The notes under the pieces are model-generated. The model was given only the letters and a program-made list of their open reading frames with translations. It did no database searches and was not told where the DNA came from. A DNA stretch of 64,000 nucleotides from NCBI RefSeq assembly GCF_014635285.1, contig NZ_BMCR01000002.1, forward strand, positions 496,001 to 560,000. The letters are read 5' to 3'. Origin of the DNA: Stappia taiwanensis (GTDB taxonomy: Bacteria; Pseudomonadota; Alphaproteobacteria; Rhizobiales; Stappiaceae). This document shows positions 38,880-45,852 of this stretch, piece after piece; position 1 is the stretch's first letter, and each line of letters begins with the position of its first letter. The position numbers were made by a program, and so were the translations under genes.

Positions 38880-40888
<2,009 letters not shown>

Positions 40889-40938: not shown

Positions 40939-41835
40939 GTGCCGTTGGACTGGGACAAACTTCGCATTTTCCACGCAGCGGCACAGGCCGGGAGCTTCAC
41001 CCACGCCGGTGAAGCCCTCAACATGAGCCAATCCGCTGTCAGCCGACAGGTCAGCGCCCTGGAGCATGACCTGAAGGTGCCCCTGTTTCACCGCCACGCC
41101 CGCGGCTTGCTGCTGACGGAACAGGGCGAAGTGCTCTACCGCACCGCGCGGGAAGTGCTGATGAAGCTGGAGGCGGCCCAGACCCGCCTCACCGACAGCC
41201 GCGAGAAACCGAGCGGCGTGCTGCGGATCACCACCACGGTCGGCCTCGGCTCGACCTGGCTGGCCCAGCGCCTGCATGAGTTCATCGACCTCTACCCGGA
41301 CATGGAACTCAGGCTGATCTTCGACGACGAAGAGCTCGATCTTGGCATGCGCGAGGCCGATGCGGCGATCCGTCTGCGCCAACCGACCCAGCCCGACCTG
41401 ATCCAGCGCAAGCTGTTCACGGTCCATTTCCATCTCTACGCCGCCCCGTCCTATCTCAAGCGCTTTGGCGCACCGAAAAGCGTGGCGGATCTCGATTCGC
41501 ACCGGATCATCACCTTCGGCGAGCAGGCCCCGCCCTATTTGCGCGACATGAACTGGCTGGAGACCGCCGGGCTTCCCGCCGGGCAGCGCCGGCGCAGCGT
41601 CCTGCGCATAAACAATGTGGTGGCGATCAAGCGCGCCGTGCAGCAGGGAACCGGCATCGCCATCCTGCCCGACTACATCAACGAGGAAGGCTCCGGCCTC
41701 GTCCAGTTGATCCCCGAAGCCGAAGTGCCGAGCTTCGACACCTTCTTCGTCTATCCGTCCGAGTTGAAGAACACCGCCCGCATCACCGCCTTCCGCGACT
41801 TCCTGCTGGCGAACGCCGAACGCTGGACCTTCTGA
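40939..41835 (+). CDS. lsrB: LysR-family regulator, LsrB/VtlR type
   Basis: This 298-residue LysR protein has an N-terminal helix-turn-helix (LDWDKLRIFHAAAQAGSFTHAGEALNMSQSAVSRQVSALE) and a LysR substrate domain. Its place after trxB and before tandem AbcR-type sRNAs matches LsrB of Sinorhizobium and VtlR of Brucella, which control AbcR sRNAs and stress or virulence functions. The start is GTG. The protein contains no cysteine at all, whereas redox-active cysteines have been reported for S. meliloti LsrB. The symbol rests on synteny and overall similarity. Confidence 0.82.
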   Translation: MPLDWDKLRIFHAAAQAGSFTHAGEALNMSQSAVSRQVSALEHDLKVPLFHRHARGLLLTEQGEVLYRTAREVLMKLEAAQTRLTDSREKPSGVLRITTTVGLGSTWLAQRLHEFIDLYPDMELRLIFDDEELDLGMREADAAIRLRQPTQPDLIQRKLFTVHFHLYAAPSYLKRFGAPKSVADLDSHRIITFGEQAPPYLRDMNWLETAGLPAGQRRRSVLRINNVVAIKRAVQQGTGIAILPDYINEEGSGLVQLIPEAEVPSFDTFFVYPSELKNTARITAFRDFLLANAERWTF

Positions 41836-41875: not shown

Positions 41876-41948
41876 GCCGCCCGACTGGGCACGAATTGGC
41901 CTCATAGGGTCGCCGTTGCCCATTTCAATGGCAACGCCCCACCAATTC

Positions 41949-42006
41949 TGCATAGCTGCAATGCAAAGGCGCTTCTTGCATAGGCACGTTGTGCAGTGCA
42001 TATAAG
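41949..42006 (+). promoter_or_regulatory. promoter region of the first AbcR-type sRNA
   Basis: Two TGCA dyads precede the gene: TGCA-N9-TGCA at 41949-41965 and TGCA-N11-TGCA at 41977-41995. They are followed by TATAAG at 42001-42006 (or CATATA two bases earlier, 17 bases after TTGCAT). Both dyads are conserved at the same spacing before the second copy, so they are candidate LsrB-type binding sites. Confidence 0.6.
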
Positions 42007-42011
42007 CAACA

Positions 42012-42145
42012 GGCTGTTGGTTTGCTTCGTCGCTATCTCCTCCCAGCGACGTCTGATGCGACCAGCTGTTCCCTCTGGAAGGTGATTGCGCCACTTAGGT
42101 GGCAAAATCGAATAACTGCCGGGCCCTGTGCCCGGCATTTTTTTT
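42012..42145 (+). ncRNA. abcR1: AbcR-type sRNA, first copy (alpha-r15 family)
   Basis: This predicted trans-acting small RNA of about 130 nt has a 5' hairpin CGTCGC/GCGACG (42028-42033 and 42046-42051) exposing the loop TATCTCCTCCCA, an anti-Shine-Dalgarno sequence like that used by AbcR to block ABC transporter mRNAs. A second hairpin around GCCAC/GTGGC and a terminator stem GCCGGGC/GCCCGGC with eight T residues follow. A second copy lies 278 bases downstream. Tandem arrangement beside an lsrB-like gene is the known AbcR1/AbcR2 layout. Ends are estimated from the -10 box and terminator, and the numbering of the copies is arbitrary. Confidence 0.82.
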
Positions 42146-42226
42146 GCCCTCATGAGCTTGCAGGCAATCACTTTTCTGACCGTGCCACCGAAACAGGCAG
42201 CGCCAAACGCCCCCCCCCTCTCATTT

Positions 42227-42284
42227 TGCATGGCTGGAATGCAGCGCTGCCTCTTGCATAGCCACGTTGTGCACTGCATATAAG
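42227..42284 (+). promoter_or_regulatory. promoter region of the second AbcR-type sRNA
   Basis: The same two dyads recur: TGCA-N9-TGCA at 42227-42243 and TGCA-N11-TGCA at 42255-42273, then TATAAG at 42279-42284. The spacing from box to box equals that of the first copy, while the spacer bases differ at several positions. Confidence 0.6.
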
Positions 42285-42289
42285 CAACA

Positions 42290-42423
42290 GGCTTCTGGTT
42301 TGCTTCGTCGCTATCTCCTCCCAGCGACGTCTGATGCGACCAGTTGTTCCCTCTGGAAGGTGATTGCGCCACCTAGGTGGCAAAATCGAATAACTGCCGG
42401 GCCCTGTGCCCGGCATTTTTTTT
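42290..42423 (+). ncRNA. abcR2: AbcR-type sRNA, second copy (alpha-r15 family)
   Basis: This copy is almost identical to the first across the transcribed region: the CGTCGC hairpin with the TATCTCCTCCCA loop (42306-42329), the central GCCACCTAGGTGGC palindrome (perfect here, one base different in the first copy) and the GCCGGGC/GCCCGGC terminator with eight T residues ending at 42423. The 5' part before the first hairpin differs slightly, so the two RNAs could have partly different targets. Ends are estimated. Confidence 0.82.
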
Positions 42424-42446
42424 GCCCCTTCGCGGACGGGCGCCCC

Positions 42447-43445
42447 TCACATATAGAGCGCCTCGCCCTCCAGCCCCGTGTAGAGCCCGGCCACCTGTTC
42501 GCCATAACCGTTGAAGAGCCGGGTCGGTATCCGCTCGCCGGTGGCGAGCAGCCGCTCGCTCGCCTGGCTCCAGCGCGGATGCGGCACCTCAGGGTTCACA
42601 TTCGCCCAGAAGCCATATTCGGACGCGGCGATCTGTTCCCAGAAACTGACCGGCCGCGTGTCGGTGAAGCTGATCCGCACGATCGACTTGATCGACTTGA
42701 AGCCGTATTTCCACGGCACCGCCAGCCGCAGCGGCGCGCCGAACTGCTTCGCCAGCGGCTTGCCGTAGACCCCGGTGGCGATGAACGCCAGCTCGTTGGT
42801 CGCCTCGGCCAGGGTCAACCCCTCCACATAGGGCCAGGGATACCAGGACGCCCGCTGCCCGGTGGCCACATCCGGATCGAGAAAGGTCTCCATGCGCAGG
42901 TATTTCGCATCCGAACTCGGCGCGGCCAGCCGCACCAGCTCGGCCAGCGCGAAGCCGGACCAGGGCACCGTCATCGACCAGGCCTCGACACAGCGATGCC
43001 GGTAAAGCCGCTCCTCAAGCGGCATTTTCTTCAGGAGATCGTCAATGGCAATGGTCTGGGGATTGTCGCACAGCCCGTCGATCCGCAGCTCCCAGGGGCG
43101 GATCTTCAGCGCCTGGGCGGCGCTGGCGATCTGCTTGTGCGAGCCAAATTCATAGAAGTTGTTGTAGGTGGAGGTGATCGCCTCCGGCGTCAGCGGCCGG
43201 CCCGCCGTGTACGCCTCGTTGCGCGGCACGGGATAGAGCCCGGCGCTCGGGTCACCCTCCGCCGCCAGCGCCCCGCCCGGCAAGAGGGCGCTGCCCGCAA
43301 TTCCTCCGGCGGCAATCGCTCCAGCAGCCACCCCTCCGGCTGTAAGGCCGAACCCGGCAAGCAGCTGGCGCCGATTGAGAAATACCGCCTCTGGCGTTGC
43401 AGTCGCTTCCGGCAGTTCCCACCCGCGTTTGCGCAGGATGTGCAT
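42447..43445 (-). CDS. msrP: methionine sulfoxide reductase catalytic subunit MsrP
   Basis: This periplasmic molybdoenzyme repairs oxidised methionines in envelope proteins. The 332-residue precursor has a twin-arginine signal (NRRQLLAGFGLTAGG, about residues 24-38) and a sulfite-oxidase-type fold with the molybdenum-ligand cysteine in RHRCVEAWSMTVPW. The ATG at 43445 is chosen; the frame extends far upstream without coding character. The membrane haem partner MsrQ, usually the next gene, is not found here. Its end faces the terminator of the second sRNA. Confidence 0.93.
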   Translation of the reverse strand: MHILRKRGWELPEATATPEAVFLNRRQLLAGFGLTAGGVAAGAIAAGGIAGSALLPGGALAAEGDPSAGLYPVPRNEAYTAGRPLTPEAITSTYNNFYEFGSHKQIASAAQALKIRPWELRIDGLCDNPQTIAIDDLLKKMPLEERLYRHRCVEAWSMTVPWSGFALAELVRLAAPSSDAKYLRMETFLDPDVATGQRASWYPWPYVEGLTLAEATNELAFIATGVYGKPLAKQFGAPLRLAVPWKYGFKSIKSIVRISFTDTRPVSFWEQIAASEYGFWANVNPEVPHPRWSQASERLLATGERIPTRLFNGYGEQVAGLYTGLEGEALYM

Positions 43446-43581
43446 CGGCAGTCCCTTTCCAGTCAGATCACATGTCTCCTTCTGGCTAGCGCTCCGCGAC
43501 CTCGCGTGCAAATCAAGCCCGGTTGATCGGGCGGGCAGGACGGAGCCCTTCCGCCCCGTCCCGCCGTGCCCCATCGCCCCT

Positions 43582-45657
43582 TCAGGCGGCCTTGCGGCCA
43601 TGGCGCGCCAACACCTGATCGGCCGCCTTGCCGCCGAGCTCCGCCAGGTGATCGAACCGCTTGCTGTAGCTCGCCACGCCAGCGGTCGCCGAACGCAGCT
43701 CAATGATCAGCCCGCCGATCTCCGCTTCCGGCATCATCGCCCGCACCTCATCCCAGCCGGGCCAGCCGGCGCGTGCATCGAACCCGAGCAACTGCCCGCG
43801 CCGCGCCGAAACGATGCCGTTGATCCGCGCCGTCGCATCGCTTGGACAATAGACCGTCACCTCATGCACCGGCTCCAGCAGCACCGGCTTGCACATGGGA
43901 AGCCCCTCGCGCATGGCCTGGATCGCCGCCATGCGGAACGCCTGATCGGAGGAATCGACGCTGTGGTAGGAGCCATCGGTCAGCGTCACCGCCAGATCGA
44001 CCGTGGGAAAGCCGAGGGTTCCCCTCTGCAAGGCCTCCTCCACCCCGGCCCGCACCGCCGAGATATACTGTTTCGGCACCACCCCGCCGGTGATGGTGTC
44101 CGTGAAGACGAACCCATCGCCGCGCCCGAGCGGGCGGATCTCCAGCGCCACATCGCCGAACTGCCCGTGGCCGCCCGACTGTTTCTTGTAGCGCGAGCGG
44201 ACCGCCGCCGTGGCACGGATGGTCTCCCGATAAGGCACCGCCGGATCGCCGGTTTCCACCGACAGGCCGTATTTGCCCGTGAGCCGCTCCAGGGCAACGC
44301 GCAGATGCATTTCGCCCTGCCCTTCGACCAGGGTTTCCGTCGCGTCCTGCAACTGGGTGACCACCAGCGACGGATCCTCCTCCACCAGCTTGGCCAGTGC
44401 GCTGGTCAGCTTGACCTCGTCCCGGCGCTCCTTCGGCCGCACCGCAAGCGCCAGCACCGGCTGCGCCGGCGCCAGGGGCGCCAGTTGCGGCGCCGGGTGT
44501 AGCAGCCCGAGCGTCTCGCCGGTCAGCACCCCTTCCAGCTTGCCAAGCGCCACCGTATCGCCGACCTCCGCCCGATCGCACTTGAGCGCCTGCTGCCCCA
44601 TCACCGTGTAGAGACCAGACACCCGCGCCGGGCTGCCATCGGCGCGCTGCAAGGTATCCGCATCGCCAACCGACCCGGCCAGCACCCGCGCCACCGACAG
44701 CTTGCCCGCATGCAGCGTGTGCACGGTCTTGAGAATCTGAAGCACCGTGTCGCCGCGCTCCTCCAGCCCGAGGCGGGCGGCGGTGGCGCCAATCCCCGGC
44801 GCCTCGTGGCGGATCGCCTTCAGCAAGCGGCCGATGCCATGGCCATGCTCGGCCGATCCGAACAGGACCGGCAGGATCATGCCCTCGCGCATTTCCCCGG
44901 ACAGATCCGCGAACACCCGCTCCCGCTCCGGCGCGGTATCCTCCAGAAGCGCCTCCATCAGCACATCGTCATGATCGGCCAGCGTTTCCAGCATGGAGAA
45001 CCGCGCCTCGATCTCGCGCGCCACCTCCTCGCCGGGGATCTCGATCACCTCGCTTTCGGCCTGCTCGCGGTAGACATGCGCCCGCTCCAGCGCCAGGTCG
45101 ATGTAGCCGGTGGCAACCCCCTCCGACCAGATCGGGATCTGGCGCAGAACCAAGGGCACGCTGGAGGCCGGCTGCAGCATCTGCAGCACCTCACGCATGC
45201 GCAAGGAGGCCTTGTCGATCTTGTTGAGGAACAGAACATGCGGAATGCCGTGGTCCTCAAGCTGCTTCAGGATCACCTGCAGCGCCGCGACCTTCTTTTC
45301 ATCCGCTTCGACGACGACCACGGCCAGATCGATCCCCGGCAGAACGCCGGCGCTCTCGCCGAGAAAATCGACGGCACCGGGGCAATCGAGAAAGGTGATG
45401 CGCTCACCGAGATACGCTGCCTCGGCGATGTTCACCTCAACGCTCATGGAATGGGCGCGCGCCTCCGGCGCCCCGTCGCCGACGGTGTTTCCCGCCGCGA
45501 TCGTTCCCTGCCGCTGAATGGCCCCCGTGCGCGCCAGAAGCGCTTCGAGCAAGGTCGTCTTGCCGCTGCCGAACGGCCCGACGATGCCGATGCACCGGGG
45601 CCCCGTTTCCCTGCCGCCGTTGAAACCACCGCCTCCGGATCCGCTGTCCGCGCCCAT
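43582..45657 (-). CDS. elongation factor G-like GTPase
   Basis: This 691-residue EF-G paralogue has a GTPase domain with GPFGSGKT (G1), DCPGAVDF (G3) and NKID (G4), followed by EF-G domains II to V (QSGGHGQFGDVALEIRPL, ARINGIVSARRGQLLGFDAR). The region where EF-G has its switch I RGITI sequence reads SMSVEVNI, so this is the EF-G-like subgroup, not the housekeeping fusA. Its cellular role is unknown; ribosome recycling has been suggested for other EF-G2 proteins. The ATG at 45657 has GGGAG upstream; an ATG at 45681 is the alternative. Confidence 0.88.
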   Translation of the reverse strand: MGADSGSGGGGFNGGRETGPRCIGIVGPFGSGKTTLLEALLARTGAIQRQGTIAAGNTVGDGAPEARAHSMSVEVNIAEAAYLGERITFLDCPGAVDFLGESAGVLPGIDLAVVVVEADEKKVAALQVILKQLEDHGIPHVLFLNKIDKASLRMREVLQMLQPASSVPLVLRQIPIWSEGVATGYIDLALERAHVYREQAESEVIEIPGEEVAREIEARFSMLETLADHDDVLMEALLEDTAPERERVFADLSGEMREGMILPVLFGSAEHGHGIGRLLKAIRHEAPGIGATAARLGLEERGDTVLQILKTVHTLHAGKLSVARVLAGSVGDADTLQRADGSPARVSGLYTVMGQQALKCDRAEVGDTVALGKLEGVLTGETLGLLHPAPQLAPLAPAQPVLALAVRPKERRDEVKLTSALAKLVEEDPSLVVTQLQDATETLVEGQGEMHLRVALERLTGKYGLSVETGDPAVPYRETIRATAAVRSRYKKQSGGHGQFGDVALEIRPLGRGDGFVFTDTITGGVVPKQYISAVRAGVEEALQRGTLGFPTVDLAVTLTDGSYHSVDSSDQAFRMAAIQAMREGLPMCKPVLLEPVHEVTVYCPSDATARINGIVSARRGQLLGFDARAGWPGWDEVRAMMPEAEIGGLIIELRSATAGVASYSKRFDHLAELGGKAADQVLARHGRKAA

Positions 45658-45852
45658 GACCGCAACTCCCTTGCCTTGCATCAACAGGAGGGACCGGGCA
45701 CGGCGGAACCAGACCGGCGCCGCGCACGGCACCCCCGCCCGCCGACGGCGAGCGGATGATCATGGTCGCGCCACTGGATCAAGGAACGCAAGGGAAACCG
45801 TTCCCGCAGCGCAGCACGAGGACTGCGGTCAAGCGGCGCAGCCAAACGAAAA

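Follow-up and report, generated by a model that had tools for sequence, protein, structure and literature searches.

The window examined here, a 64-kb stretch of the Stappia taiwanensis genome, raises the question of what is encoded twice over between a LysR-type regulator gene and its neighbor msrP: the AbcR1/AbcR2 pair of regulatory RNAs, a more distant relative of it, or a single functional RNA with a decaying duplicate. The genes run in the order trxB, LysR, sRNA copy 1, sRNA copy 2 and a convergent msrP (Table 1); within the fetched LysR loci, a trxB match occurs somewhere in 80 of 80 and an msrP match in 57 of 80. An elongation factor G-like gene (43582-45732; NF009379, 975 bits) lies beside msrP. 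The repeat is direct, with units of 224 nt each at 41926-42149 and 42204-42427 that are 90% identical and start 278 nt apart, and each unit carries the CGTCGC-TATCTCCTCCCA-GCGACG hairpin as well as the TGCCGGGCCCTGTGCCCGGCA terminator with eight T behind it. This bears out what a sequence-only reading of the region had described as two copies 278 bases apart with a common hairpin and eight-T terminator; the length of 130 nt that it gave to the RNA gene yields to predicted transcripts of about 134-135 nt, with putative starts at 42011 and 42289 placed from the geometry of the upstream box. The two copies fold better than their dinucleotide shuffles (z of -3.07 and -3.42, with 0 and 1 of 200 shuffles folding equally well). 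Moreover, in an alignment of 62 distinct homologues, which was fitted to the structure and has related rows, 98.0% of the cells pair and 13 of the 24 pairs have changed on both sides; neither value was reached by any of 500 shuffles.

Table 1. Features of the trxB-msrP locus in window coordinates. R1 is a covariance model described in the text; both window copies belong to its training set, so that their R1 scores are not independent.
Feature	Coordinates	Strand	Evidence
trxB, thioredoxin reductase	39845..40888	+	TIGR01292, 410.5 bits, over cut-off
VtlR/LsrB-type LysR regulator, without cysteine	40939..41835	+	PDB 9hh1 match, E 1.9e-128, 298 aa
Copy 1 VtlR box GCAT-N3-TG-N3-T	41950..41962	+	Exact match; position conserved; 87 nt 5' of aSD1
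Copy 1 putative core promoter TTGCAT-N17-CATATA	41976..42004	+	Sequence and conservation
Copy 1 AbcR-like sRNA (predicted)	42011..42145	+	R1 133.4 bits (42014-42144); fold; 5' end placed from box geometry
Copy 1 hairpin, aSD1 loop TATCTCCTCCCA	42028..42051	+	Sequence, fold, covariation
Copy 1 aSD2 UUCCCUC	42069..42075	+	One C shorter than in 81/86 rows
Copy 1 second stem-loop (palindrome)	42083..42110	+	Fold
Copy 1 terminator and 8 T	42117..42145	+	
Copy 2 VtlR box	42228..42240	+	Exact match; 87 nt 5' of aSD1
Copy 2 putative core promoter TTGCAT-N17-CATATA	42254..42282	+	Sequence and conservation
Copy 2 AbcR-like sRNA (predicted)	42289..42423	+	R1 128.2 bits (42292-42422); fold; 5' end placed from box geometry
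Copy 2 hairpin, aSD1 loop TATCTCCTCCCA	42306..42329	+	Sequence, fold
Copy 2 aSD2 UUCCCUC	42347..42353	+	One-C deletion as in copy 1
Copy 2 terminator and 8 T	42395..42423	+	
msrP, convergent neighbor	42447..43703	-	NF003767, 416.3 bits, over cut-off, residues 89-415; frame start uncertain

A search of the whole window at Rfam gathering scores returned tRNA as the only match, and the search with the ar15 model (RF02345; gathering 40 bits), set beforehand as the refuting test of the AbcR assignment, went against it, with no match on either copy even at E<=10; hence, ar15 in its modelled form does not include the window RNAs. Among 20 short homologous stretches, 15 have an ar15 entry, at 15.6-31.6 bits (cut-off 40), and the window copies are absent from those 15. 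Further candidates, namely anti-hemB (28.4 bits), JA04 (21.8), SorX (20.6) and Hrs12 (20.1), were rejected: all score under their cut-offs and align short hairpins plus the terminator.

Evidence of a different kind comes from following the locus across genomes in both directions. The same locus scores as Rfam ar15, at 46.3-52.7 bits, in 6 of 16 records tested: all six of an Aquamicrobium/Nitratireductor/Mesorhizobium-like (ar15-type) group and none of the ten others. For the reverse direction, the covariance model R1 was made from 24 sequences, comprising the two window copies, one copy from the same-genus genome G076 and 21 named loci (one of them, L035, from Chthonobacter; L029 and L036 bear broader names), with the ar15-type group left out of training. 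R1 matches 17 of 17 ar15-type loci (L066, L068-L070, L072-L084) at 42.9-52.8 bits, and its coordinates equal those of Rfam ar15 in all six such loci tested; no strong R1 match was found at the locus in 8 of 46 sources (L037, L045, L049, L051, L057, L061, L063 and L064). The Stappia-family and ar15-type RNAs also have in common the UUCCCCUCUGGA core, and the core TTCCCCTCTGGA is present in both groups. On the strength of the ar15 score at the same locus, the recovery by R1, the spacing of the VtlR box, the CUCCUCCC loop and the UUCCCCUCUGGA core, we consider it very probable that the window RNAs are AbcR orthologues, corresponding in origin to AbcR1 of rhizobia and brucellae, that have diverged too far for the Rfam ar15 model; this is the best explanation of the locus as a whole. 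The Stappia RNAs are distant, unannotated relatives of the rhizobial AbcR RNAs, and no title on AbcR in Stappiaceae stood among the literature matches listed. The earlier call of tandem AbcR-type RNAs with duplicated promoters is supported by the position after trxB-VtlR/LsrB, the constant distance of the box, the two aSD elements and the models applied both ways.

The box deserves closer scrutiny. Its published form is GCAT-N3-TG-N3-T, in the available part of PMC7486931, and in S. meliloti it occupies -61 to -49 of PabcR1, according to the accessible text of PMC8844928. Exact boxes start at 41950 (copy 1) and 42228 (copy 2), in both cases 87 nt 5' of aSD1, and both copies agree with the AbcR1-type position, a geometry from which the starts themselves were derived. 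Among 67 distinct upstream regions (86 rows minus duplicates; the regions are related), a box within one mismatch lies 84-92 nt 5' of aSD1 in all 67 and is exact in 27, set against shuffle expectations of 2.1 and 0.19, respectively. As the two strands of the window hold seven further exact matches, and 32 of 40 one-mismatch regions have an equally good match elsewhere upstream, the box counts by its position and not alone. The exact box lies 77-79 nt 5' of aSD1 in 16 of the 17 ar15-type loci, L083 being without one, and at 86-90 nt in the Stappia-family and a few other loci that have it. A generic sigma-70 scan detected no promoter at the copies. At window position 41996, between the -35 and -10 elements, copy 1 reads GTGCAG in both the window species and its sister species (G076), and copy 2 reads GTGCAC, as do most of the 67 listed regions.

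Both seed elements can be traced through the 86 rows, which include some genomes under two ids. aSD1, CUCCUCCC, occupies the 5' hairpin loop in 73 of them, the window copies included, and the remaining 13 have UUCCUCCC. TTCCCCTCTGGA is found in 81 of the 86; L055 differs, and the four rows that lack one C are precisely both copies of the window species and both of the sister species. One collection of rows drew on 85 sources, of which 84 matched (L037 did not), and left out L016 and the other-family loci except L035. The aSD2 of both window copies is UUCCCUC, as against the UUCCCCUC that AbcR has between its first and second stems and that in S. meliloti acts independently of aSD1 (PMC8844928, in the part available). 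Set beside AbcR1 (alpha-r15, RF02345; S. meliloti, A. tumefaciens, Brucella), the window RNAs have the same place downstream of trxB-vtlR/lsrB (an arrangement described in the accessible portion of PMC7486931), a VtlR box upstream of the core promoter, a CUCCUCCC hairpin loop, an intrinsic terminator and a second element that is one base shorter. They differ from AbcR1 in falling under the Rfam threshold, in a box-aSD1 distance of 87 rather than 77-79 nt, and in that the adjacent VtlR is devoid of the LsrB cysteines.

Is the tandem, then, the AbcR1/AbcR2 pair itself, as had been proposed from its place after an LsrB/VtlR-like gene? Like AbcR2 of S. meliloti, window copy 2 is a second tandem copy with the same seeds; yet, PabcR2 has an RpoH1 promoter instead of the LsrB box and AbcR2 is described as not LsrB-controlled (PMC8844928, in the text at hand), whereas copy 2 has a VtlR box of its own. 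In addition, 84 of 87 family genomes give a BLASTN match to at least part of the RNA and 86 of 87 an R1 match under strict filters, with a strong tandem in two only, the window genome and the same-genus G076. By the box on both copies and this narrow distribution, the tandem is not the AbcR1/AbcR2 pair. The sole family genome without an R1 match, G042, may represent a real loss or an assembly gap; G014 and G063 have extra R1 matches elsewhere, scoring 30-36 bits; and the next R1 match in the window genome (21.7 bits) overlaps an ar14 gene.

Across the repeated block, the orthologous copies of the two species differ at 5 and 6 sites and the paralogous ones at 15-19; from this, the duplication appears to be older than the divergence of the window species from its sister. 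The variable sites comprise 12 that are copy-specific, none that is species-specific, one swapped and nine single. Gene conversion between the copies was rejected, as at no site are they grouped by species, and so was the palindrome base as a mark of the copies, as it is swapped between them in the sister species. Thus, the differences at the 5' ends and in one palindrome base seen previously are real, while the latter base does not stably label a copy. Of the 12 copy-specific sites, nine precede the putative RNA start, three lie in the outer stem of the 5' hairpin domain, and none falls in the aSD1 loop, aSD2 or the terminator, the two seeds being identical between copies. By this distribution, the copies would have diverged mainly upstream of the RNA, with expression rather than targets as the likely difference; the suggestion that they are diverging in target range accordingly lacks support. 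PMC8844928 (available part) likewise attributes the specificity of AbcR1 and AbcR2 largely to differential expression. Counting the other way is the proposal, in the accessible part of PMC3712013, that in other pairs it is the 5' hairpin that discriminates; the three copy-specific sites noted above belong to the outer stem of this hairpin domain.

The most serious rival to two working genes is that copy 2 has no function of its own and is a duplicate that is neutral or in decay. The confinement of the strong tandem to 2 of 87 genomes and a broken outer-stem pair in copy 2 are what such a duplicate could look like, but both copies retain the box, the aSD1 loop, the same shortened aSD2 and the terminator in two species, with orthologues closer to each other (5 and 6 block sites) than paralogues (15-19); on balance, we regard this reading as unlikely. 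Far less probable is that an AbcR-like form beside vtlR was reached by convergence, from an unrelated sRNA with an aSD loop: C/U-rich aSD loops do recur in unrelated sRNAs (PMC3927594, in the part available) and Rfam ar15 fails on the window copies, but convergence would have to yield the same locus, the box at a matching distance, two elements in the same order and a core of 12 nt, and R1 recovers 17 of 17 ar15-type loci. The RNAs of the ar14 family (RF02344; NfeR1-type) likewise expose CUCCUCCC-type loops. That the window RNAs belong to it is scarcely credible: ar14 does align full length on both copies and equals or exceeds ar15 on some relatives (33.4 against 31.6 bits on L175; 26.5 against 16.6 on L169), but its 16.6 bits in the window fall short of the gathering score of 58.8, the genome has its own ar14 pair over the cut-off on another contig (82.7 and 65.2 bits), and the place after a VtlR-type gene, the box and the UUCCCCUCUGGA core would all go unexplained. 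That ar14 pair (G000:C1:292302-292428 and 293751-293876; L289 and L290) is spaced about 1.4 kb apart.

Of 80 named loci, the best five, all from Stappia, encode LysR proteins 88-90% identical to that of the window. The window protein can be aligned with PDB 9hh1 along its whole length; no NCBIfam match over its cut-off was found among the 25 of 56 listed. We take 9hh1 to be the LsrB of A. tumefaciens because its cysteines fit the C144, C236, C244 and C273 given in the accessible part of PMC11975290. According to the same text, all four undergo reversible modification, the conserved ones are C144 and C273, and replacement of C273, but not of C144, raised peroxide sensitivity. The window LysR has zero cysteines, as do 43 of 81 homologues; cysteines in both the C144 and C273 columns occur in 17 of the 81, which are the ar15-type loci, and in none of the Stappia family. 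Being without any cysteine, the VtlR-type protein of the window is itself incapable of thiol sensing. The LsrB cysteines may have been acquired later, within the rhizobial lineage.

As for targets, the aSD1 target pattern GGGAGGAG-N3-10-ATG gave 34 sites, and the reversed-pattern control 10. Thirty of the 34 were fetched, 23 had an ORF of >=80 aa, and 20 of these 23 were scanned with Pfam (L187, L189 and L199 were not), giving five solute-binding genes and one permease gene among the 23 candidates. The control Shine-Dalgarno pattern AAGGAGGA (22 sites and 14 distinct ORFs, of which 10 were scanned) likewise finds three transport genes, one each for an ABC solute-binding protein, an ABC ATPase and a TRAP binding protein, and is not clearly different from the aSD1 set. 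For aSD2, the full complement GAGGGGAA gave 11 sites and five ORFs, all scanned, three of them ABC-type; AGAGGGAA gave 10 sites and eight ORFs, five scanned, with one SBP_bac_8 and one TRAP-type. By coordinates, GGGAGGAG stands before the ATG of 3 of 15 Peripla_BP_6 (LivK-type) genes and of 0 of 16 SBP_bac_5 genes; in S. meliloti, livK belongs to the targets of AbcR1 (PMC3712013, in the available part). When the 23 starts are ranked by aSD1 duplex, the top three and one of two tied in fourth place are ABC solute-binding genes, and the six ABC genes differ from the rest in duplex energy (Mann-Whitney p 0.004; Fisher p 0.008-0.06, depending on the threshold), in a comparison that is small and post hoc. 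The signal is weak; it is suggestive in that it fits AbcR function, and falls short of proof; probably, the sRNA turns down nutrient-uptake genes.

Briefly, we advance the following plausible mechanism. The two RNAs would be separately transcribed, trans-acting sRNAs, each activated by the adjacent VtlR/LsrB-type regulator through binding of the box about 60 nt upstream of its start. Each would expose the CUCCUCCC loop and the shortened UUCCCUC, both of which might pair, probably with the participation of Hfq, with ribosome-binding sites of uptake-protein mRNAs and so block their translation. The one-base shortening of aSD2, common to all four copies, may have occurred before or with the duplication, and the tandem may have arisen in the ancestor of the window species and its one sister species. 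More tentatively, and as a possibility that we rate as less likely than not, the circuit of this lineage could have been rewired through the loss of one base from the second seed and a duplication that took in both the gene and its VtlR box, so that a double dose of AbcR came under a cysteine-free VtlR; the sRNA output would then be ancient, and the thiol input seen in LsrB of rhizobia a later addition. These findings matter in three respects: (i) they extend the known range of the VtlR-AbcR circuit to include the Stappia family, in which all stretches tested stay below the Rfam cut-off; (ii) they provide a separate, lineage-specific tandem for comparison with AbcR1/AbcR2; (iii) through the distribution of C144 and C273, they make testable the order in which sRNA control and redox sensing evolved. 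Finally, in another family of the order, two genomes (G231 and G298; loci L158-L161) each have two separate R1 matches, one strong and one weaker, which suggests a dispersed AbcR pair.
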